From assembly GCA_022448345.1 (NCBI GenBank), contig JAKVCB010000025.1, forward strand, positions 1 to 37,720: DNA of 37,720 nt, given 5' to 3'. The number at the start of each line of letters is the position of its first letter. Position 1 is the stretch's first letter. The stretch comes from Pirellulales bacterium. Its GTDB lineage: Bacteria; Planctomycetota; Planctomycetia; Pirellulales; Lacipirellulaceae. The notes beneath the pieces are model-generated. The model had not been told where the DNA came from and did no database searches. It worked only from the letters and a program-made list of their open reading frames with translations. Both the position numbers and the translations under genes were made by a program. Positions 9,086 through 21,217 of the stretch are shown here, piece after piece.

Positions 9086-10168
9086 GTGGGAAAAATTGAT
9101 ATCTTTACAGTCGTCGAGGCGCCGCCAGAGCGGCCCAGGCATGGAGCGGGCACGATTGTTGAACTCAACGATGGCAAGCTGCTATTGGCCTGGATGGAAC
9201 ACGTCGGGGGTGACACGATCGGCCACGACCACGCACCCTGCAATATCGCGCAGATGACCTCCAGCGATGGAGGCTACACGTGGGAAGATCGCAAAATCTT
9301 TGTGGAAAATGCGCCGGGGGACGTCAACATTCATTACCCCTGCTTCGGTCGACTCAACAATGGAGAAATCCTGTTTTGTTTCCAGCGACTCCACTTGCTG
9401 GCACCCGGTAAGCCGCAGAGTTCTACCTCTTTTTCACGGCGAAGCGCCGATGACGGCAAGACATTTTCTGAGCCGGTGATGCACAACATCAATCAAAAGC
9501 GTCCGATTGCAGCCTACCTATTGACGCAATTAAGTACCGGGCGGATTATTCATCCCCTCCAACAAGTGCTGGGAGACTGGTGCGGACCGACCGACCATCA
9601 AATCAACAGCTGTGCCTATAGCGACGACTTGGGCCACACCTGGAAACAGTCGGAAAACTGGGTTGACCTGCCCATGCGGGGGGCCATGGAACCTCATATT
9701 GTCGAGTTAAGCGATGGCCGCCTGCTGATGTACATGGGGACCCAGTTGGGGGCAATTTTTCAGTCCACCTCGTACGATGGAGCAGTCACCTGGTCGAGCC
9801 CCCAAACCACAGGACTAAGAGCTCCCGAGTCGATGCCTTGCCTGGTGAAATTTCCCCACACGGGTGACTTACTGGTGATTTGGAATCACAGCACCTACGA
9901 CCCAAATTTTGACCACTGCGGCAAGCGGACCCCCCTCACCACCGCAATTTCCCGCGACGAGGGGAAGACGTGGGAAAATTTCAAGAACATTGAGACCGAT
10001 CCACTCTACGAGTTCACCAACCCTTCGTGCCATTTTACCAGCGCTGGGAAAGTGATCATCATGTACGAGGCTTCCAAGATGGATAACCCCAACCCGCCTG
10101 GAAGGTTGGGCCGAAGTTGCATGCCGCTGAAGTCGGCAGTTGCCGATATCGACTGGTTTTACAGCTGA
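9086..10168 (+). CDS. Sialidase-fold (BNR/Asp-box) glycoside hydrolase-like protein
   Basis: This 360-residue six-bladed beta-propeller is of the sialidase superfamily. Five Asp-box motifs of the S-x-D-x-G-x-T-W/F type are visible, starting at about residues 59, 120, 179, 229 and 289: SSDGGYTW, SADDGKTF, SDDLGHTW, SYDGAVTW and SRDEGKTW. There is no signal peptide, so the protein is probably cytoplasmic. That is unusual for a true sialidase and suggests an intracellular hydrolase or a related enzyme acting on imported oligosaccharide. The start is GTG at 9086 with an AGAGGG site nine bases upstream. It follows the secreted LamG-DUF6259 gene by 88 bases, and its TGA overlaps the ATG of the next gene by one base. 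The substrate is unknown; many planctomycete proteins labelled sialidase are probably not neuraminidases. Confidence 0.88.
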   Translation: MGKIDIFTVVEAPPERPRHGAGTIVELNDGKLLLAWMEHVGGDTIGHDHAPCNIAQMTSSDGGYTWEDRKIFVENAPGDVNIHYPCFGRLNNGEILFCFQRLHLLAPGKPQSSTSFSRRSADDGKTFSEPVMHNINQKRPIAAYLLTQLSTGRIIHPLQQVLGDWCGPTDHQINSCAYSDDLGHTWKQSENWVDLPMRGAMEPHIVELSDGRLLMYMGTQLGAIFQSTSYDGAVTWSSPQTTGLRAPESMPCLVKFPHTGDLLVIWNHSTYDPNFDHCGKRTPLTTAISRDEGKTWENFKNIETDPLYEFTNPSCHFTSAGKVIIMYEASKMDNPNPPGRLGRSCMPLKSAVADIDWFYS

Positions 10169-10824
10169 TGGATGCTCCCCGACTGATCGTGACTCCAGCA
10201 GCGGCCGAACTTGGTCTGGTTGCGACCTCCTATGTCACAACCACGCTCTCAAATTCAAAAGGGCATGAAGAGTTCGACCGTTTAAAACAGGCAGCCCTGC
10301 CCCGTTTTCTTGAGCAATATACACCAGAGTTCGTGGCCAACGATCCGGTGATTCTCGGTTTCCGCGCGCTGCGTCAGGCGGTTGGGCGATCTCCCAAGAA
10401 ATACCCCTGTTCGATCGAAAGTTTGATTGGATTTCTTCAGCGGCGAGGCCAGTTGCCATCGATCAATCTGGCGGTCGATATTTATAACCTCGTGTCACTT
10501 GAAACACGCCTAACGATGGGCGCCCACGATCTTGATCAGGTCGATGGCAATATCACACTTCGCCTCGCCCAGGGAGAGGAGCGGTTTTTGCCCTTGGGAT
10601 GCGAGACGGTCGAGTCGGTGCGAGCTGGCGAATACTGCTATTGCGACGACACCGAAGTCCTTTGCCGACTCGATTACAAACAATGCGACAAGACCAAGCT
10701 AAGCGTTGACACCAGGCGCTGCCTCTTTATCCTGCAGGGCAACAAGAACACCCCGGAGGAAATGCTCCAGCAGGCAAAGACCCGCTTGACCGAACTGCTC
10801 AACCAGTTTTGCGCGACCGTCTAA
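10168..10824 (+). CDS. B3/4 (tRNA-synthetase-type editing) domain protein
   Basis: This 218-residue protein resembles stand-alone B3/4 domains, the fold that forms the tRNA-binding/editing part of phenylalanyl-tRNA synthetase beta. Supporting stretches are FRALRQAVGRSPKKYPCSIESL, INLAVDIYNLVSLETRLTMGAHD, VDGNITLRLAQGEERFLPLG and a late TRRCLFILQGNK segment. Stand-alone members are thought to hydrolyse mischarged aminoacyl-tRNA or to bind amino-acid-like ligands, but the role of this one is not known. The ATG at 10168 shares its A with the TGA of the sialidase-fold gene, so translation is likely coupled. A longer frame from 10117 overlaps the sialidase and is less likely. The stop overlaps the stop of the convergent SoxG-like gene by four bases. 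Confidence 0.8.
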   Translation: MDAPRLIVTPAAAELGLVATSYVTTTLSNSKGHEEFDRLKQAALPRFLEQYTPEFVANDPVILGFRALRQAVGRSPKKYPCSIESLIGFLQRRGQLPSINLAVDIYNLVSLETRLTMGAHDLDQVDGNITLRLAQGEERFLPLGCETVESVRAGEYCYCDDTEVLCRLDYKQCDKTKLSVDTRRCLFILQGNKNTPEEMLQQAKTRLTELLNQFCATV

Positions 10825-11495
10825 AACCAGTCGGGAAAGAGCGCCTCTGCCCCAATGGGGTTGCCATCCAGGTCGCGGCAAATCGTCACCAGCTCATCCC
10901 ACAGGTAAATGGCGTAAGTCGGGTCGAGGCGGATTTGAAAAACGTCAACGTCTCCTGTGCGCGTCGGCAAGACACTGCAGCTCACTCCCGCCAGCCGAGT
11001 CATCACCAGCACATCAGCTGACGCTTTCGACCAGTCGATGCCGCACGTTTGCGCCAATACATCACGCGACTTCTCGCCCGAGAGATATAAAACGGCATCT
11101 TGGCGGTCAAAGAGGTGGCAATCCGAGGACATCGTCCCGTCGAGACTCCATTCTGACCAGAGCGGACTGGACTGCCCCGGTTTCGACTCGATCAGAAACT
11201 CGTCGCCGCCACTCCGGACCACGCGAAGGCCACCATCAGGTGTTTCGGACGTTGCGTAGACTTCCGGTGGCACCGTCACTCCGTGCGCAGTCAGCCACGC
11301 GGCCGCGCCCTCCCCTTTTAAAAAACGAGTCGGCTGGCAACTCAGATCACAGATCGCAAGTGTGCCCAGTTGTGCCTGTTCATCTTCAACAGCACCCAGT
11401 CGCCGCGCCACGCAACCACCTTCCCACTCAGACCATTCGGCACCGAGAGATTCAAGTCGATCGAACAGAGGGGTGTTTCGAACGGGATTGGTCAC
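10821..11495 (-). CDS. soxG: Sarcosine oxidase gamma subunit-like protein (SoxG/MgdD type)
   Basis: This 224-residue protein is the small gamma-type subunit of heterotetrameric sarcosine oxidase or N-methylglutamate dehydrogenase. It has a weak folate-binding GcvT-like fold: ICDLSCQPTRFLKGEGAAAWL near the start, YLSGEKSRDVLAQTCGIDW in the middle, and a C-terminal TYAIYLWDELVTICRDL. The GTG start at 11495 overlaps the TGA of the SoxA-like gene in a GTGA arrangement, typical of translational coupling in this operon. A longer in-frame start at 11552 would intrude into SoxA and is unlikely. The sequence is divergent, as is normal for SoxG, and the call rests partly on its position as last gene in B-D-A-G order. 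Its stop overlaps that of the convergent B3/4 gene. Confidence 0.85.
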   Translation of the reverse strand: MTNPVRNTPLFDRLESLGAEWSEWEGGCVARRLGAVEDEQAQLGTLAICDLSCQPTRFLKGEGAAAWLTAHGVTVPPEVYATSETPDGGLRVVRSGGDEFLIESKPGQSSPLWSEWSLDGTMSSDCHLFDRQDAVLYLSGEKSRDVLAQTCGIDWSKASADVLVMTRLAGVSCSVLPTRTGDVDVFQIRLDPTYAIYLWDELVTICRDLDGNPIGAEALFPDWF

Positions 11496-14407
11496 GAAAT
11501 CAACTGCCTTTCCCCGTCGGGATCGTAAAAGGGTGTCTCGGTGATTTGACAACGCGAAAGCGCACCCGAGTCGGTGCGAATCGTAATGGTCGTCCCAGGT
11601 TCTGCCAGATCGGGCCGCACGTGCGCCAGGCCCAAAGGATATCCAAGGGTACTGCGGTGAGCGATACTGGTCACCCGGCCTGCAATTTGGTCATCGGCAA
11701 TAATCAAGTTGCATTCGTCCGGCAATGGCAACTGCCTGTTGGGAGCGTAACAGAAGCCAACCAGTTTTCGATCCAGGGGCTGGTCTTCGACAATTTGCAA
11801 ACTCCGCTGACCCACAAAAAACTTCTTCTGTCGACGAATCAGGCCACCCAGGTTGGCGTGATATGGAGTGGTCAGCGCGTCGGTATCCTGCCCTACAATC
11901 AGGTGCCCTTTTTCAAGTCGCAAAAGGCGCTGGGCCTCGACTCCAAAGGGGCAGATAGAATGCGCCTTGCCGGCCTGCATAATCTCGTTCCAGACATGAC
12001 ATCCCGCCTGGGCGGGCACGTGTATCTCATAACCGAGTTCGCCAATAAAACCGACCCGCATGACAATCGCCGACACGCCCGCCACCTGGCCCTGGCGGGC
12101 CGCCGAAAATGGAAATTCCTCCTGCTCGAGGTCGATGTCGGTCAGTGAACTCAAGACCGATCGTGATCGAGGTCCGGCAAGGTTCATCGCCGTGTACTGG
12201 CCTGTAAGATTGATCAAGGTCACCCGCATGCCCCAAACCAGGGCCCATCGCTGCAGTTCGCGAAAAAAGCTTGCACTCCCTGAACTGGTGGCACTCAAAT
12301 AAAAGTGGTCTTCGGCGAGTCGCACGACAACGCCGTCGTCAATGATCACCCCCGACTCATCACAAGCCGCACCATAGCGCAGGGTGCCTGGTTTCTGCCT
12401 GGTAAATGACCCAATGTACACCCGGTTTAAAAACGCGGCTGCGTCAGGCCCACTAATCCCAATTTTTCCAAGTGTGCCAAGGTCGATCATGCCCACCTGT
12501 GCGCGCACATGTTGGGCCTCGTCGAGAATGCAATCTGCACGCGGTCTTTTTCCCCGGGCGTAAAACTCCGGGCGTTGCCAACCGCCCCCGACAAAGATGA
12601 ACTGGCCACCATGGTCGCGGTGCCAGCTGTGCATGGGCGTCCGCCGCGAGGGATGAAACCGCCGGCCGGCCAGCTGTTCGATGGAAACCGGATGGTGAAA
12701 CGGCCGCGAGGTCGTCGTGCCCGTCTGGTCGATCGTGTTCCCGTTGAGGCGGGCTAAAATCCGAATTGCATTTTGATTGGAAAGTTTACCCTGACTTGGC
12801 CCCATCCCCACGGTGGAGTACCGCTTCATCAACTCGATATTGTCGTATCCTTCCTGGTGGGCATTTACAAAGTCGGCCAGGTGAAGATCTTCATCAAAGT
12901 CGACAAAGTTCTTTTTCTTGGGGTGTGCAAAAATCGGGTAGGGATGGCTGCGGGCCGGGCCAGTCGGCTCGATTGGCGCCAACGGCTGTTCTTGCTCGTC
13001 GGTCATACCTTGGCAGGCAGCCAGCCCGCTCGAGTGGCCATCCTCAACCTGGGCCTGCCAATCGAAGATCCCGCGAACCCGTCCTGCCACGTGCACGCTG
13101 TCTGGCAGGCTCGTGGGAACCAACTGCTCGAGTGCCTGGTTGTATGAAAAACGCCCGCCTGCCTGGTAAAGGATGTCTGCCGTCGGTGCCCAGCCAACGC
13201 TCACGGCAACCCCGTCGCAGGCAATGGGTAGGGAACTTGTCGTAGTGAGCTCGCCCGACTTTTCCAGACGCGCAATCCGCACTCCAGCGACCGCCTGCTT
13301 GTCCTTGGTGGGGGTGGCTTCTGAAATCGCGTGGCCCTGGTGGATGGGAATTCCTTTTTTGGCGAGCTCATTGGTCAGGTCGGTTTGCGAATCTTCCCGC
13401 AAATCGACCACCGCGGGGACTTCTACTCCCGCCGCCAGCAGGTCCAGGGCCAGCCGGTATCCGTCGGAATTGGCGGTCATCACCACAGCCGACTGAAACG
13501 GCCGGATTGCATAGTGATGCATTAACCGCTGTGCCGCCGATCCGAGCAGCACACCTGGCAGGTCGTTATTATGAAACACGGCTGGCTGTTCGCAGCATCC
13601 ACTGGCAACGACAAGGGCCCTGGCCCGCAGTTTTGTAAGTCGCTGCGCGTCCACCAGGGCAATCCAATGGTCGGAATACCAGCCTGCCGCCTGCGTTGCC
13701 AGTCGAAGCCGAATCCGCTCGTGTTGCTGCACACGTTCCAAAAGTGAGTTCAGCACCTGGCGAGCCTCGGGAACTCCTGCCAACTGCCATGTCAAACTGC
13801 CACCGGCGCGGGGCAATTCGTCCACCACCAGAACGTCGACCCCTTGATCGGCAGCAGCCAGGGCTGCCGACAACCCGGCAGGGCCGGCACCGATGACCAA
13901 CAGGTCACAAAACGCGTAGTCTTTTGGCGTTTGCTTGGCGACGTAATCAGGATGCAGACGACCCAGGCCCGCCACCTGGCGCATTTGGTTTTCAAAAAAG
14001 GGAAAAAGCTTGCGTGGCGTATGGAATGCCTTGTAATAAAAACCGACCGGCATCAGTTTACTGAAGCGCTCGGTGATTTTTAATCGATCCTGCTGGAGTC
14101 CACCCCAAGTGTTGACGGCCCGGGCAACGAGCCCCTCGTAAATGGGCAGCTGGTCTCCCCGCAAATTGGTACGACTGCCATCGTCGACCAGGAAATTTGC
14201 ATCATGATTGGCGAGGCTGTAGATTCCCCGGGGACGGTGGTATTTAAAACTGCGGGCGGTAAAACGGACGCCGTTGGCCCAGAGTGCACTCGCCAGCACG
14301 TCACCAGCATACCCAGTGTAGGTGGTCCCTTCGAACTGAAAGGTCACCGCCTGGCTGCGGTCGATCCATTCACCCGGTTGTTGGGGAAGGCGATTTTCCA
14401 CGCTCAA
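11492..14407 (-). CDS. soxA: Sarcosine oxidase alpha subunit-like protein (SoxA/MgdC type)
   Basis: This 971-residue flavoprotein is the large subunit of a heterotetrameric sarcosine oxidase or N-methylglutamate dehydrogenase, removing N-methyl groups with transfer of the C1 unit to folate. In order it shows a 2Fe-2S-fold N-terminal domain without cluster cysteines (about 15-100, ARSFKYHRPRG), a dinucleotide-binding segment with GAGPAG (173-178), a second reductase-like half, and a GcvT/aminomethyltransferase-like C-terminal half from about residue 580 (RTPMHSWHRDHGGQF, MIDLGTLGKIGISGPDAAAFL, GELGYEIHVPA). The start is TTG at 14407, overlapping the SoxD TGA as TTGA; a GTG two codons later is possible. 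The length is close to the family norm. It is read as part of the B-D-A-G operon. Confidence 0.95.
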   Translation of the reverse strand: MSVENRLPQQPGEWIDRSQAVTFQFEGTTYTGYAGDVLASALWANGVRFTARSFKYHRPRGIYSLANHDANFLVDDGSRTNLRGDQLPIYEGLVARAVNTWGGLQQDRLKITERFSKLMPVGFYYKAFHTPRKLFPFFENQMRQVAGLGRLHPDYVAKQTPKDYAFCDLLVIGAGPAGLSAALAAADQGVDVLVVDELPRAGGSLTWQLAGVPEARQVLNSLLERVQQHERIRLRLATQAAGWYSDHWIALVDAQRLTKLRARALVVASGCCEQPAVFHNNDLPGVLLGSAAQRLMHHYAIRPFQSAVVMTANSDGYRLALDLLAAGVEVPAVVDLREDSQTDLTNELAKKGIPIHQGHAISEATPTKDKQAVAGVRIARLEKSGELTTTSSLPIACDGVAVSVGWAPTADILYQAGGRFSYNQALEQLVPTSLPDSVHVAGRVRGIFDWQAQVEDGHSSGLAACQGMTDEQEQPLAPIEPTGPARSHPYPIFAHPKKKNFVDFDEDLHLADFVNAHQEGYDNIELMKRYSTVGMGPSQGKLSNQNAIRILARLNGNTIDQTGTTTSRPFHHPVSIEQLAGRRFHPSRRTPMHSWHRDHGGQFIFVGGGWQRPEFYARGKRPRADCILDEAQHVRAQVGMIDLGTLGKIGISGPDAAAFLNRVYIGSFTRQKPGTLRYGAACDESGVIIDDGVVVRLAEDHFYLSATSSGSASFFRELQRWALVWGMRVTLINLTGQYTAMNLAGPRSRSVLSSLTDIDLEQEEFPFSAARQGQVAGVSAIVMRVGFIGELGYEIHVPAQAGCHVWNEIMQAGKAHSICPFGVEAQRLLRLEKGHLIVGQDTDALTTPYHANLGGLIRRQKKFFVGQRSLQIVEDQPLDRKLVGFCYAPNRQLPLPDECNLIIADDQIAGRVTSIAHRSTLGYPLGLAHVRPDLAEPGTTITIRTDSGALSRCQITETPFYDPDGERQLIS

Positions 14408-14661
14408 GCCTCTTTGTCGAAAAGATAGGTTCGGACAAACTCGTCAGTCACATTGTTTCGTTCGGCGATGAACCATGTGCCACTCGGCAGGTGGTACCAC
14501 CATTCCCGTTTGACATGGGGATGCCCCTCACGATGGAAGACGTATTCCGCCCACGCGGTGTCATCGACCTGGTCGGGGTCGGGCATAGCGCGAAACTCCC
14601 CACCAAAGTGGAATTCCTGCGCGGGACGCAAACCGTTGAGCGGACAAGGTATAAGTTTCAT
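14404..14661 (-). CDS. soxD: Sarcosine oxidase delta subunit-like protein (SoxD/MgdB type) lacking canonical zinc ligands
   Basis: This 85-residue protein is the small zinc-binding subunit of the sarcosine oxidase family. The start IPCPLNGLRPAQEFHFGGE and the end WFIAERNNVTDEFVRTY are typical. In structurally known members zinc is held by Cys6, Cys9, a His and a later Cys. Here Cys6 and the His (H57) remain, but position 9 is Asn and the last position is Gly, so zinc is probably not bound in the usual way. From memory, a CPLNG-type variant is widespread in the family, which would make this a subfamily trait rather than decay. It lies 26 bases after the SoxB-like gene, and its TGA overlaps the SoxA start. 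Confidence 0.92.
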   Translation of the reverse strand: MKLIPCPLNGLRPAQEFHFGGEFRAMPDPDQVDDTAWAEYVFHREGHPHVKREWWYHLPSGTWFIAERNNVTDEFVRTYLFDKEA

Positions 14662-14687
14662 GGGTGATTTGGACGGGGAGACACTAC

Positions 14688-15932
14688 TTAATGCCCAACC
14701 GAAGCAGCCCCCTTTTCACCGACGAGTTGAAATCGTTCAAACCGGTCCAGCGCAAACGGTTCGATCAAGGGGTGTGGGTGATCCTCGGCCACCGTGTGGG
14801 CCATGGTTTCTCCGCTCACCGGGGTTGCTTTAAAACCCCAGGTCCCCCAACCGGAATCGAGGTAAAACCCTCGGATTGGGGTGAGCCCCATGATGGGCGA
14901 AAAATCGGGCGTCATGTCACACAGTCCGGCCCACTGACGCAGGACATGGACCATACCGAGCCTCGGAAACAGATCTACCAGTTGACCCGAAAGCGATTCG
15001 ACAAACTCCAGGCTCGATCGCATGGAAATTAATTCATACGGGTCAAGAGAAGCCCCCGTAACCAGCTCGCCTCGCGACGACTGGCTCACATAGAGATGCA
15101 GGCTTGCCGAGACCACAATGTGATCAAGCCACGGTTTTAAAGGCTCGGTGACGAAAGCTTGGAGTGGATGAATTACCAGGGGCGTTTGTACACCCACCAT
15201 TTGTGTTAGATGGGTGGTCCAGCCGGCTACGGCGCTGAGGACTTTGCGGGTTTTGATAAACCCCTTGCTCGTATGGACGCCGGCCACTTCCCCATCCCGA
15301 ACTTCAACGTCGGTGACTTCGGTTTTCTGGTGAATTTCAACGCCCCGATGGTCCGCCCCGCGGGCATAGGCCCAGGCCACCGCATCATGCCGGGCGATGG
15401 CGCCTGGCGGGTGGAATAAAGCACCGCAAATCGGAGCCTGGTGGCCGCCGCACTCGAGATCCATTTCTGGGAGGCATTTTTCAATGAAGGCCCGATCGAC
15501 AAGTTCACTGTCGATCCCAAGGTGCTTGTTCACCTCTGCCCGCCATCGCATCGTGTTGAGCGAGGCGGGCGAGTGGGCCAGCGTAAAATGCCCTCGCTCT
15601 GAATAAAAGAGGTTGAAATCGAGCTCGCGGGAAAGGCCCTGAAACAATTCGCGGCTTCGTTCATAAAAACGGACACCGTCACTGGTTAAATAATTGGAGC
15701 GAACGATGGCCGTATTTCGTCCGGTACCTCCCCCGCCGAGGTAACCCTTTTCTAAAACGGCCACATTCGTGATGCCATGATTCAGCGCCAGGTAATAGGC
15801 CGCAGCCAGTCCATGCCCCCCACCTCCAATAATCACCACGTCGTACTCGTCTTTCAGACGACTTGGCTCGCGAAACATGCGAGCCTCCGGGTAGTCTTTG
15901 CTGACGGCGAATTTTAAGAGACGATGCGGCAT
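14688..15932 (-). CDS. soxB: Sarcosine oxidase beta subunit-like protein (SoxB/MgdA type)
   Basis: This 414-residue FAD-dependent amine oxidase subunit carries the substrate site of heterotetrameric sarcosine oxidase or N-methylglutamate dehydrogenase. The N-terminal FAD loop is IIGGGGHGLAAAYYLA (glycines at 36-41). GRNTAIVRSNY follows, then the RHDAVAWAYARG segment containing His182, which corresponds to the His that holds FMN covalently in characterised enzymes. The C-terminal LDSGWGTWGFKATPVSG is the typical second flavin-contact stretch. The start at 15932 is preferred because family members carry a similar 30-residue N-terminal extension; a second ATG at 15878 is possible. It lies 131 bases downstream of the glutamine synthetase-like gene, on the same strand and probably in the same transcript. 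Confidence 0.95.
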   Translation of the reverse strand: MPHRLLKFAVSKDYPEARMFREPSRLKDEYDVVIIGGGGHGLAAAYYLALNHGITNVAVLEKGYLGGGGTGRNTAIVRSNYLTSDGVRFYERSRELFQGLSRELDFNLFYSERGHFTLAHSPASLNTMRWRAEVNKHLGIDSELVDRAFIEKCLPEMDLECGGHQAPICGALFHPPGAIARHDAVAWAYARGADHRGVEIHQKTEVTDVEVRDGEVAGVHTSKGFIKTRKVLSAVAGWTTHLTQMVGVQTPLVIHPLQAFVTEPLKPWLDHIVVSASLHLYVSQSSRGELVTGASLDPYELISMRSSLEFVESLSGQLVDLFPRLGMVHVLRQWAGLCDMTPDFSPIMGLTPIRGFYLDSGWGTWGFKATPVSGETMAHTVAEDHPHPLIEPFALDRFERFQLVGEKGAASVGH

Positions 15933-16063
15933 GGAGGATTCTTATACGTCAGCACACGAACAGGCAACTTCTTTGAAAATACTTTCGGTCTCGGAAAGAA
16001 ACTCGCGGCCTCGTCGAGGGAGGGGTAGGTTTTTTTGGAGGGAACCAGCCGTTCTTGTCCATC

Positions 16064-17422
16064 TCAAAATAACGTCAGGTATTGATCCACTTCCCACTGC
16101 GTGACTTGCGTGTCGTAAGTCTCCCATTCCTGGGTCTTCAGGTCGAGAAATTCGCCAGCAATCGGCCCAAGTCCTTCCTGGACTACTGAGTCGTCCCGCA
16201 ATTCTTGAACCGCTTCCCACAACGACTGCGGAAGGATCTGGATGCCCGATTCCAAAATTTCCGTCAGCGGCTTCTCGTACAGATTGCCCAGGTTTGGCTC
16301 GCCCGGGTCGAGTTTGCGTTCAATCCCGTCGAGGCCAGCGGTGAGATAGGCGGCCAATGCAAGGTACGGATTGCAACCGGCCGAAACGGTGCGATCTTCA
16401 AAGTGACCAGGCCCTGCGGTCCGTATCATTTGGGTGCGGTTGTTGTCTCCATAGCTTACGAATGCCGGCGTCCAGGTGAATCCGGATCGACTTGACTGCA
16501 AACCGGAACCGAGTTGAAGCCGCTTGTAGCAGTTCACGGTGGGACTGGTCACGGCACAAAGGGCTCGCGCGTGATGCAAGATTCCCCCCACAAAATGGTA
16601 GGCCAGGTCCGAACACCCAAGACCGCGCTTGTCGGAGTCGCTGTCAAAGACCGGTTTTCCACTGGCAGCATCGGCAAGATGGAAATGAACATGGAGTCCA
16701 CTGCCGGTTCGGTCGCTGAACGGCTTGGGCATGTGCGTGGCCAGCGCCCCGTATTTTTTTGCGATTTGCGAAGTGGCCATTTTGAAGAACGTGATCCGAT
16801 CGCAGGTAGTGAGCGCATCGGCGTAATCAAAATTCACTTCGTATTGGCCATTGGCATCCTCGTGATCTGCCTGATAAACGCCCCAGCCAAGGTGATTTAA
16901 CGAGGTGGTTAGCTCCTGGAGATAATCCATCGCCGGTGCCATGGAACGAAAGTCGTAGCAAGGTTTTGAGAGGCCGTCCGCGCCGTCTGGATTCCACGGT
17001 TCAAGCGAGCCATCCTCCTTCCGCGTGACCAAAAAATGTTCCGGTTCCATGCCCACATTAAAAATGTATCCTTTGTCGCGCGCCTCGGATAAGACCCGCT
17101 TGAGATTCGTACGGGCACAGTAGGGATACGACTCGCCATCGACATACAAATCCGCAGCAAACCGGGCGGTATTCGGTAGCCAAGGCAGCGGAGTATAACT
17201 GTCAAGATCGGCCCGCGCCAGCATATCGTGCGAGTGAGGACCTTGTCCGGAACCCCATACCGCAGCCCCGGCAAACCCCGCACCTTCGTCGACCGCGTCG
17301 TCAAAGGAACTGACCGGCACCATTTTTACCTTGGCGGATCCGTGGATATCGACAAATTGAACCAACAGGAAGTCGATCCCCTTCTCCTGCATTTTTTGGC
17401 GAATTTTTTCCCGATCGGACAT
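16064..17422 (-). CDS. Glutamine synthetase family protein, GlnT / gamma-glutamylmethylamide synthetase type
   Basis: This 452-residue enzyme belongs to the glutamine synthetase fold. Its N-terminal VQFVDIHGSAKVKMVPVSSF and GAGFAGAAVWG, the GMEPEHF metal site, YQADHEDANGQYEVNF, MPKPFSDRTGSGLHVHFHL and the NCYKRL and AGCNPYLALAAYLTAGLDG segments resemble GlnT-type enzymes, including gamma-glutamylmethylamide synthetase, which joins methylamine to glutamate using ATP. A clear AGGAAGAG ribosome-binding site precedes the ATG. As first gene of an operon with a sarcosine oxidase/N-methylglutamate dehydrogenase-type complex, a role in methylamine or N-methyl amino acid nitrogen metabolism is likely. 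Plain ammonia-using glutamine synthesis, capturing ammonia set free downstream, cannot be excluded. The specificity needs substrate-pocket comparison. Confidence 0.88.
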   Translation of the reverse strand: MSDREKIRQKMQEKGIDFLLVQFVDIHGSAKVKMVPVSSFDDAVDEGAGFAGAAVWGSGQGPHSHDMLARADLDSYTPLPWLPNTARFAADLYVDGESYPYCARTNLKRVLSEARDKGYIFNVGMEPEHFLVTRKEDGSLEPWNPDGADGLSKPCYDFRSMAPAMDYLQELTTSLNHLGWGVYQADHEDANGQYEVNFDYADALTTCDRITFFKMATSQIAKKYGALATHMPKPFSDRTGSGLHVHFHLADAASGKPVFDSDSDKRGLGCSDLAYHFVGGILHHARALCAVTSPTVNCYKRLQLGSGLQSSRSGFTWTPAFVSYGDNNRTQMIRTAGPGHFEDRTVSAGCNPYLALAAYLTAGLDGIERKLDPGEPNLGNLYEKPLTEILESGIQILPQSLWEAVQELRDDSVVQEGLGPIAGEFLDLKTQEWETYDTQVTQWEVDQYLTLF

Positions 17423-19313: not shown

Positions 19314-20129
19314 CTAGGAGACCGAAAATGGAGTGATCGCGGTCGAGCCACCTTCTGCCGTGAGCAAAGACGACTCGGGGACCTCTGCCCAATGCTCTGC
19401 CAGTTCATCGAGAGGCTCGGAGACCACGATGACCCCATCGTCCGGAAGGGGCCCATACGTACCGTCCACCTCCTTGAGGGCATGGATGTGACAACTGTGA
19501 TAGAGCGTTCTGGACTGATGATTGCTCGAATACCTTACCGCCCATAATCGCTCGCCATCGGTCACGCAGGCACTGAAAAAAAACGGGAGGTTGATCCCTG
19601 CTGCTTCCACTGCACGAGTCACGTAACCCATCGTCCGCGACAATGCTGCCGGGGGGTCTTTTTGCAATCCGAACGTGAGCGCCAGAAAGAATAATATCTC
19701 CGAATCGGTCGACCCTTCGATGTAGGGAAACAACGACGGCTCCACATCGAACATGAACTGGCGCCGCAACTTGTCAAATTCCGGGATGGCACCGTTGTGC
19801 TGAAAAAGCCACCGGTCGTAGGTGAACGGATGGCAATTCGTTTTTTGGACAGGCGCCCCCGTCGCCGCACGGACGTGCGCTAGAAACAAGGGCGACTGAA
19901 CGTGGTCCGCCAGGCTGCGAAAATTGGTGTCATTCCAGGCCGGATGCGTATCCCGATAAACGCCAGGCACTCGCTCAGCGCCATACCATCCCACCCCAAG
20001 ACCATCGCCATTGGTTGTGTAGACGTTTTCCCTTGCGTGACGACTTTGATCGATCAACGAGTGATTGGGGCGCACCAGCAGCGAACTCAACGTGACGGCG
20101 GGACCCTGATAAGCAAGCCAGCGACACAT
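19314..20129 (-). CDS. Class II glutamine amidotransferase, YafJ/EgtC type
   Basis: This 271-residue protein starts MCRWLAYQG, with the catalytic N-terminal Cys (Cys2) exposed after Met removal. It continues with the family stretches RPNHSLIDQS, TTNGDGLGVGWYG, PLFLAHVRAATG, TNCHPF, FQHNGAIPEF and EGSTDSEILFFLAL. This is the class II (Ntn) glutaminase fold of YafJ and EgtC (gamma-glutamyl hydrolase in ergothioneine synthesis). No other ergothioneine gene is visible, so its acceptor is unknown. The ATG at 20129 is fixed by the need for Cys2; a longer frame to 20252 would bury it. It is not the MgsA-type amidotransferase of the N-methylglutamate pathway, which would begin MCGIVG. Confidence 0.93.
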   Translation of the reverse strand: MCRWLAYQGPAVTLSSLLVRPNHSLIDQSRHARENVYTTNGDGLGVGWYGAERVPGVYRDTHPAWNDTNFRSLADHVQSPLFLAHVRAATGAPVQKTNCHPFTYDRWLFQHNGAIPEFDKLRRQFMFDVEPSLFPYIEGSTDSEILFFLALTFGLQKDPPAALSRTMGYVTRAVEAAGINLPFFFSACVTDGERLWAVRYSSNHQSRTLYHSCHIHALKEVDGTYGPLPDDGVIVVSEPLDELAEHWAEVPESSLLTAEGGSTAITPFSVS

Positions 20130-21217
20130 ACCCGCACCCTCCAACAGAACAACTGGTTCAACCCGCACAAGAGCATGCCTGTAAACGGACCAACTAGACG
20201 ACGCCCCTAAATTGATTATTGAAGGCGACAGCCTACTCTGCAATGACCTCATTCAACACGCGTAACCTGGCCAGTGGTTGCTGGTGGTTTGCCCTTTCGC
20301 TTGACTGCCCCGCATACTGGCATGCGATTGGCTTTCACATCGATCGCTCCCAAATAGCGGGGCACTCATATTTATCGAAGCGACGTTCCGTTTTCCAGTT
20401 GCCAAACACACCTGCGTCCCGAGCCTGACAGGCTCGCAAAATGCGGGCAAGGGGCAAGCCGTTTTTGTTGGCCCCCCCTCGGAAAGAAAGTTTTCTAAAC
20501 ATATTTTGCGCGTCCGGTTCCCGCGCCACCCTATCGACGAAATGGATCCGCGCGTTGATCGACTCATGCCTGAGGCCGGCGACCTTTTTCCAACCCTCAC
20601 TCCTGGGAGGCCGGATATTCACCGATTATTCCGGAAATAGAGTTGCACTCCAACTGGGCTGTTTGCCCAAACAGGATTTCCTTTCAGACGAACAATGATA
20701 GACGTAACCAGTTTACCTACAGGATATTACGGCGCCACTTGTGCCCACCGTTAAGAAGTTTGTCGCTCCAAGTGAGTGAGGGCCTGCAACTCCGGCCAAG
20801 CGTGGCGAAAACTTTTTTTGAAGCTAGGCCGATTGTCCAGCTTTGCTTCACTGAAAACAACGGAGTCCTCCACCAACCCCAACCGCCGCAAGCGTCCCTT
20901 GCAGACAGGCCTTGATCCAGGGAAATTTGCCTCCGCAAATCGGCCTTCACCCCATTGCTCGGGTACGGTCGAACAACTATATTCTTGGCGTCGCGACGAA
21001 TCGTGACGAGCAGGTATGAAGATGAAGGAAATAAAGAAGGTTGACACGTGGTCACGGTCTCTTTTCGCCTCGCGCCGCATGCTGCGTAGCCGTGCTCTTC
21101 AAAGAAGTGCCCCGCGCCGGATTTGTGGCTATCTGCTCCCAAGCTATTCGGGTTTTTGGTTTGCTTCACAAGGAGTAATACCGTTTACCCATGTTTCGAG
21201 TTTTGCGGAGGGCAGAA
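20130..21217. other. Long region without a recognisable gene, about 1.1 kb
   Basis: Between the divergent amidotransferase and cold-shock genes I find no frame with a convincing protein. Several frames of 70-150 codons overlap one another on both strands and read as arginine-, serine- and cysteine-rich chance translations. No tRNA or known structured RNA was recognised. A TTGACA box occurs at 21041-21046 but lacks a fitting -10 box. A loose sigma-54-like TGGCATG-N4-TGGCT occurs at 20318-20333. Confidence 0.5.
21207..21212 (+). promoter_or_regulatory. Ribosome-binding site fixing the cold-shock gene start
   Basis: GGAGGG lies five bases before the ATG at 21218 and decides against the longer frame starting at 21191. 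Confidence 0.85.

Follow-up and report, generated by a model that had tools for sequence, protein, structure and literature searches.

The locus described here raises the question of whether methylamine is handled by an N-methylglutamate pathway whose synthase genes lie elsewhere in the genome, or whether the genes form a variant without a synthase, in which sarcosine oxidation is combined with an ammonia trap. We analyzed a stretch of 37,720 nt (the window) from contig JAKVCB010000025.1 of Pirellulales bacterium GCA_022448345.1, a draft genome that is 83% complete and 5.4% contaminated. Family and domain scans revealed a five-gene operon on the minus strand, in which a GlnT-type gene is followed by genes of the SoxB, SoxD, SoxA, and SoxG types. 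The putative γ-glutamylmethylamide synthetase gene gmaS (glnT type; 16064..17422, 452 aa) matched TIGR03105, the family of type III glutamate--ammonia ligases, at 559 bits, above the cut-off. The next gene, mgdA-type (SoxB family; 14688..15932, 414 aa), encodes a predicted flavin subunit of N-methylglutamate dehydrogenase (TIGR01373, 478 bits, under the cut-off of 529) and precedes genes of the mgdB type (SoxD family; 14404..14661, 85 aa; PF04267, 89 bits), the mgdC type (SoxA family; 11492..14407, 971 aa), and the mgdD type (SoxG family; 10821..11495, approximately 224 aa if translation begins with the GTG of 11495). The mgdC-type product was assigned by its domain order, a complete set of PF13510, Pyr_redox_2, PF17806, PF01571, and PF08669 that includes a folate-binding aminomethyltransferase domain. 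The mgdD-type product matched TIGR01375 weakly (E 3.6e-4), and a SoxG homologue occupies the same place in the operons of relatives. The TTG start codon of SoxA overlaps the SoxD stop (TTGA, 14407-14404), and a candidate GTG start of SoxG overlaps the SoxA stop (GTGA, 11495-11492), the mechanically derived reading frame opening at 11552. The five genes, the B-D-A-G order with its TTGA and GTGA overlaps, and the lack of mgsABC had all been reported in a preliminary description of this DNA, and each point held: no mgsABC gene was present within the window. An EgtC-like amidotransferase (19314-20252) was considered as MgsA and rejected, its best family being EgtC (TIGR03442).

The GlnT protein was closer to solved γ-glutamylmethylamide synthetases (GmaS) than to glutamine synthetases, with 436 bits to a glutamate--methylamine ligase (9qur) and 342 bits to GmaS (7cql), compared with 259 bits for its best glutamine synthetase match. 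In RhGmaS (7cql), the catalytic residues are Asp177, Glu186, and Arg312, the flap Glu of glutamine synthetase gives way to Trp300, and Ala48 stands where glutamine synthetase has its ammonia-site Asp (PMC7948447). These positions correspond to D186, E195, R329, W317, and A51 of the window protein, which retains all of the catalytic and methylamine-site residues checked (Y156, Y183, D186, E188, E195, N197, W317, and R329). With Ala at the Asp50 site and Trp at the flap, it departs from glutamine synthetases at both of these sites. Across 80 related loci, the D, E, R, and W residues were kept without exception (80/80) and the Ala in 78. In a tree built by a quick method, GlnT joined the GmaS enzymes, apart from glutamine synthetases that included two from its own genome. 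Within GmaS, however, it was situated on a branch separate from RhGmaS and 9qur, composed of Planctomycetota, Chloroflexota, and others with approximately 63% or more identity to the window protein. The GmaS catalytic residues, the absent ammonia-site Asp, and the grouping with solved GmaS thus identify GlnT, at the level of sequence, as a γ-glutamylmethylamide synthetase.

The Sox-type proteins bear on the explanation that the operon combines a sarcosine oxidase with a trap for ammonia or amines of the glutamine synthetase type. They match the sarcosine oxidase families TIGR01372-1375, conserve flavin-site stretches with solved TSOX (PDB 1vrq, 2gag), and share its four-subunit architecture and domain order, with a beta subunit match of approximately 372 bits. 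However, all four subunits scored under the curated family cut-offs (478/529, 60/117, 839/1164, and 20/144 bits), and the window SoxB fell within a 32-row clade (100/98) drawn entirely from gmaS-linked operons. The sister pair of this clade (join, 100/99) comprised the Paraburkholderia and Acidithiobacillus SoxB proteins, which adjoin glnT-mgsABC, whereas the solved sarcosine oxidases were placed in another clade (100/100) without the window. Since the latter clade also includes Rhizobium and Sphingobium SoxB adjoining mgs genes, the SoxB clade alone is no proof of substrate. The CxxC..H..C pattern, which we take to be the zinc site of TSOX, was missing from the window SoxD and from all 35 SoxD records closest to it, compared with its presence in 53 more distant records, these counts spanning locus records that partly overlap. 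Taken with the GmaS-type rather than glutamine-synthetase-type active site and the mgsABC genes that accompany the operons of relatives, these features make the sarcosine and trap explanation very improbable. The complex is better read as an mgdABCD-type four-subunit dehydrogenase, for which N-methylglutamate would be the substrate. The preliminary description had entertained the sarcosine and ammonia-trap variant, which finds no support here, and had held that grouping of GlnT with glutamine synthetases and of SoxB with sarcosine oxidases would speak against a methylamine role; the trees returned neither grouping.

To place the operon among its relatives, a scan of species genomes at an identity of at least 63% to the window GlnT yielded the 80 loci, which came from Planctomycetota, Latescibacterota, and Chloroflexota (SAR202), with a few labeled Verrucomicrobiota, Gemmatimonadota, Spirochaetota, and SAR324. 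The recurrence of gmaS with a downstream sox operon in dozens of these loci, from several phyla, indicates that the arrangement is not due to chance. Searched with reference MgsABC from annotated plasmids, 63 of the 80 loci contained mgs in the same locus as gmaS, 50 of them with mgs, gmaS, and sox on one strand. From among the 17 loci lacking linked (or canonical) mgs, 14 genomes without mgs found next to gmaS (partial mgs in the case of L119) were searched as a whole, and MgsC was present elsewhere in 13. The exception was L041, with no MgsC in the whole-genome search; its contig begins 306 bases before gmaS. Among 294 Planctomycetota genomes, all seven with MgsC (E < 1e-70) fell among the 10 with GlnT (E < 1e-110). 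Because MgsC occurs elsewhere in genomes with unlinked gmaS, the layout of the window appears to be one already known among relatives and not a synthase-free variant of the pathway.

In its own genome, canonical mgsABC was not found in the 83% complete draft, and the candidate synthase is a diverged locus on contig C69. It encodes MgsA (2592-1612) and, at 1630-1, a fused MgsB-MgsC that is cut by the contig end inside mgsC and whose reading frame runs for 543 aa uninterrupted by stops. A match on contig C34 was rejected as MgsC, being gltB beside gltD, and another on C406 grouped with other glutamate-synthase-like proteins in the MgsC tree. Three groups stood out in this tree, which has long branches and whose groupings are taken with reserve: a canonical group of 51 rows, a SAR202 type with 17, and a diverged group, supported at 98/95, that joins the C69 protein with those of G241, L066, L081, and G061; a split of 99/91 set GltB-like rows apart from the gmaS-linked MgsC and the C69 MgsC. 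Diverged mgs genes lie next to gmaS on the same strand in L081, with an ammonium transporter between, and in G241, where a degenerate MgsC copy abuts the reading frame of gmaS. They are adjacent in divergent orientation in L066 and L056, and unlinked in G061, in the sister genome G294 (the genome of L040), and in the genome of the window.

We consider it very probable that the operon serves the N-methylglutamate pathway and that the synthase is encoded at another site in the genome, most likely by the C69 genes for MgsA and fused MgsB-MgsC. GmaS would convert methylamine, glutamate, and ATP to γ-glutamylmethylamide (GMA); the synthase would free methylamine from GMA and attach it to 2-oxoglutarate, giving N-methylglutamate; and the SoxBDAG-type complex (MgdABCD) would return glutamate together with methylene-tetrahydrofolate or formaldehyde. 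This assignment is qualified by the location of the operon and C69 on different contigs, by the 5.4% contamination, and by a SoxB clade that does not in itself fix the substrate. The preliminary description had offered synthase genes lying elsewhere as one of its two alternatives, and the C69 locus, along with MgsC elsewhere in other genomes with unlinked gmaS, speaks for it; its proposed search of the genome for mgsABC recovered this diverged, truncated locus and, in the 83% complete draft, no canonical set.

The C69 genes could also belong to an ordinary split, GltD-linked glutamate synthase, with the real N-methylglutamate synthase among the 17% of the genome missing from the assembly. The C69 MgsC is just approximately 45% identical to reference MgsC, the diverged MgsC retains the iron-sulfur cysteines of glutamate synthase, the G294 synthase locus carries a GltD domain, and the diverged type does not adjoin gmaS in G061. 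However, gltB and gltD already stand side by side on C34, as G294 likewise has both, most gmaS-linked MgsC also have the iron-sulfur cysteines, and the diverged type adjoins gmaS in four other genomes, with every genome seen to carry it also carrying gmaS. On this evidence, the ordinary glutamate synthase is an unlikely explanation. The incomplete C69 locus could alternatively be a pseudogene or contamination, in which case, with no mgs in the window, the organism would have no working N-methylglutamate synthase, and GmaS and the dehydrogenase would act independently of each other, with N-methylglutamate being imported or GMA serving as a nitrogen store. Such a scenario is very improbable, given the open reading frame and the identity of 88% (MgsA) and 92% (fused MgsBC) to the intact genes of G294. 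Moreover, C69 resembles the window in base composition (GC, 0.553 vs. 0.556; tetranucleotide r, 0.948), and its neighboring gene (987 aa) is 66% identical to the G294 match, both of which argue against a stray contig from a G294-like organism. Other genes compared between the two genomes were 66-79% identical; the synthase genes are thus unusually similar, a pattern that points to transfer, strong constraint, or mis-binning.

The preferred reading, with the synthase on C69, leads to the source of electrons for that enzyme. In G294, the contig with gmaS and mgdA is distinct from that with the diverged synthase (L184), where mgsBC is followed by a gene for an 843-aa protein with a GltD-like N-terminal part (Fer4_20, Pyr_redox_2) and a C-terminal part corresponding to MgsX, a second, degenerate copy of MgsC. 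MgsX was found in every diverged locus reading past mgsC (L081, L066, G241, G061, and G294) and lacked the iron-sulfur cysteines in all four aligned copies. The MgsX search of the window's own genome returned the C69 MgsC as its sole match, a result to be expected from truncation of the contig within mgsC. No assembled copy of the 843-aa protein was found in this genome, the only match being the gltD by gltB on C34; its C-terminal part had no match in 298 genomes of the class, a set without a positive control, for which absence is not implied.

In glutamate synthase, the corresponding cysteines bind a cluster that carries electrons to FMN. Every full-length MgsC in the planctomycete canonical set (43), the SAR202 set (31), and the diverged set (8) had a C-x2-C-x4-C motif ahead of a PVGIT-type stretch, the locus records behind these counts overlapping in part. 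The motif was missing from every member of a set of 18, with loci of Rhizobium, Sinorhizobium, Sphingobium, Acinetobacter, Mycobacterium, and Latescibacterota among them, in which the region reads like YDDWHEGxDPAGITT. All 18 fall into a single clade of the MgsC tree, which is most simply explained by one loss of the motif. A GS/GOGAT-like reaction has been proposed for N-methylglutamate synthase, whose redox cofactor was stated to be unknown, with NADH, NADPH, and ferredoxin as candidates (PMC6237917). The GltD fusion in this one sister genome suggests NADPH as the reductant in the lineage. We tentatively propose, at somewhat less than even confidence, that the synthase of this lineage acts as an NADPH-driven "methyl-GOGAT", composed of MgsA, an iron-sulfur fused MgsB-MgsC, and GltD joined to a degenerate MgsC, that would convert GMA, 2-oxoglutarate, and NADPH to glutamate and N-methylglutamate, and that the MgsC branch without the three cysteines uses another electron route or a redox-neutral exchange. 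One synthase locus with a GltD domain, together with the clear-cut division of MgsC by its cysteines, reduces the reductant question to simple enzyme assays.

Proteobacteria account for most of what is known of the N-methylglutamate pathway. Its gmaS-mgsABC-mgdABCD genes in Methyloversatilis universalis FAM5, Methylobacterium extorquens DM4, and Paracoccus aminophilus (PMC5023235, PMC6237917, PMC4543880) share with our locus GmaS, a four-subunit dehydrogenase, the subunit order, and overlapping genes, whereas here the host is a planctomycete and its own mgs genes are not adjacent, are diverged, and have MgsB fused to MgsC. The glnT-glxBCD-soxBDAG genes of SAR11, proposed for methylamine oxidation (PMC3160333), comprise the same three enzyme sets but are alphaproteobacterial, with the synthase genes adjoining glnT. 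MgsA, MgsB, and MgsC correspond to domains of glutamate synthase GltB, to which the G294 locus adds a domain of GltD; the diverged mgs genes, however, are split or fused otherwise, include the extra degenerate MgsC, and occur in gmaS-bearing genomes, several of them beside gmaS. No description of gmaS or the N-methylglutamate pathway in Planctomycetes was found in the open-access literature, which agrees with the preliminary description, where no such pathway was known of, and no paper on gmaS with SAR202 was found there. We thus appear to be dealing with a known pathway in a phylum for which that literature yielded no description, its variant part being the synthase, and the GltD-linked N-methylglutamate synthase is likely the novel element. 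Planctomycetota, Latescibacterota, Chloroflexota (SAR202), and other groups repeatedly carry gmaS operons of the present type, with marine samples as the origin of many, and these groups may therefore be missed when methylamine use is surveyed through gmaS.

Several related loci depart from the common arrangement. In a latescibacterotal locus (L096, 9777-13070), mgsABC interrupts the sox operon and separates soxD from soxA. In two Planctomicrobium-like genomes (L075, 2968-4125; L080, 5482-6621), gmaS is followed by a single flavoprotein, resembling monomeric sarcosine oxidase in sequence, with no soxBDAG following; this protein possibly replaces the four-subunit dehydrogenase. On a Mycobacterium methanotrophicum plasmid (L122, 13305-14495), glnT-mgsABC precedes the gene of a lone FAD-binding oxidoreductase, and the stretch shown contains no soxBDAG. 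In G241, an MttB-family methyltransferase gene (L131, 14898-16457; PF06253, 346 bits) precedes the diverged mgs-gmaS operon, an ammonium transporter-like gene lies nearby, and the stretch flanking gmaS yielded no soxBDAG. The single-contig genome G238:C1 (L129), listed as 100% complete, contains mgs-gmaS and gave no SoxB match at E 1e-60. In the window itself, a stand-alone B3/4-domain protein (PheRS editing-type domain; 10117-10824, plus strand) is encoded tail to tail with the operon, and six of the 80 gmaS loci also have a relative of it (L040, L047, L050, L053, L073, and L074).
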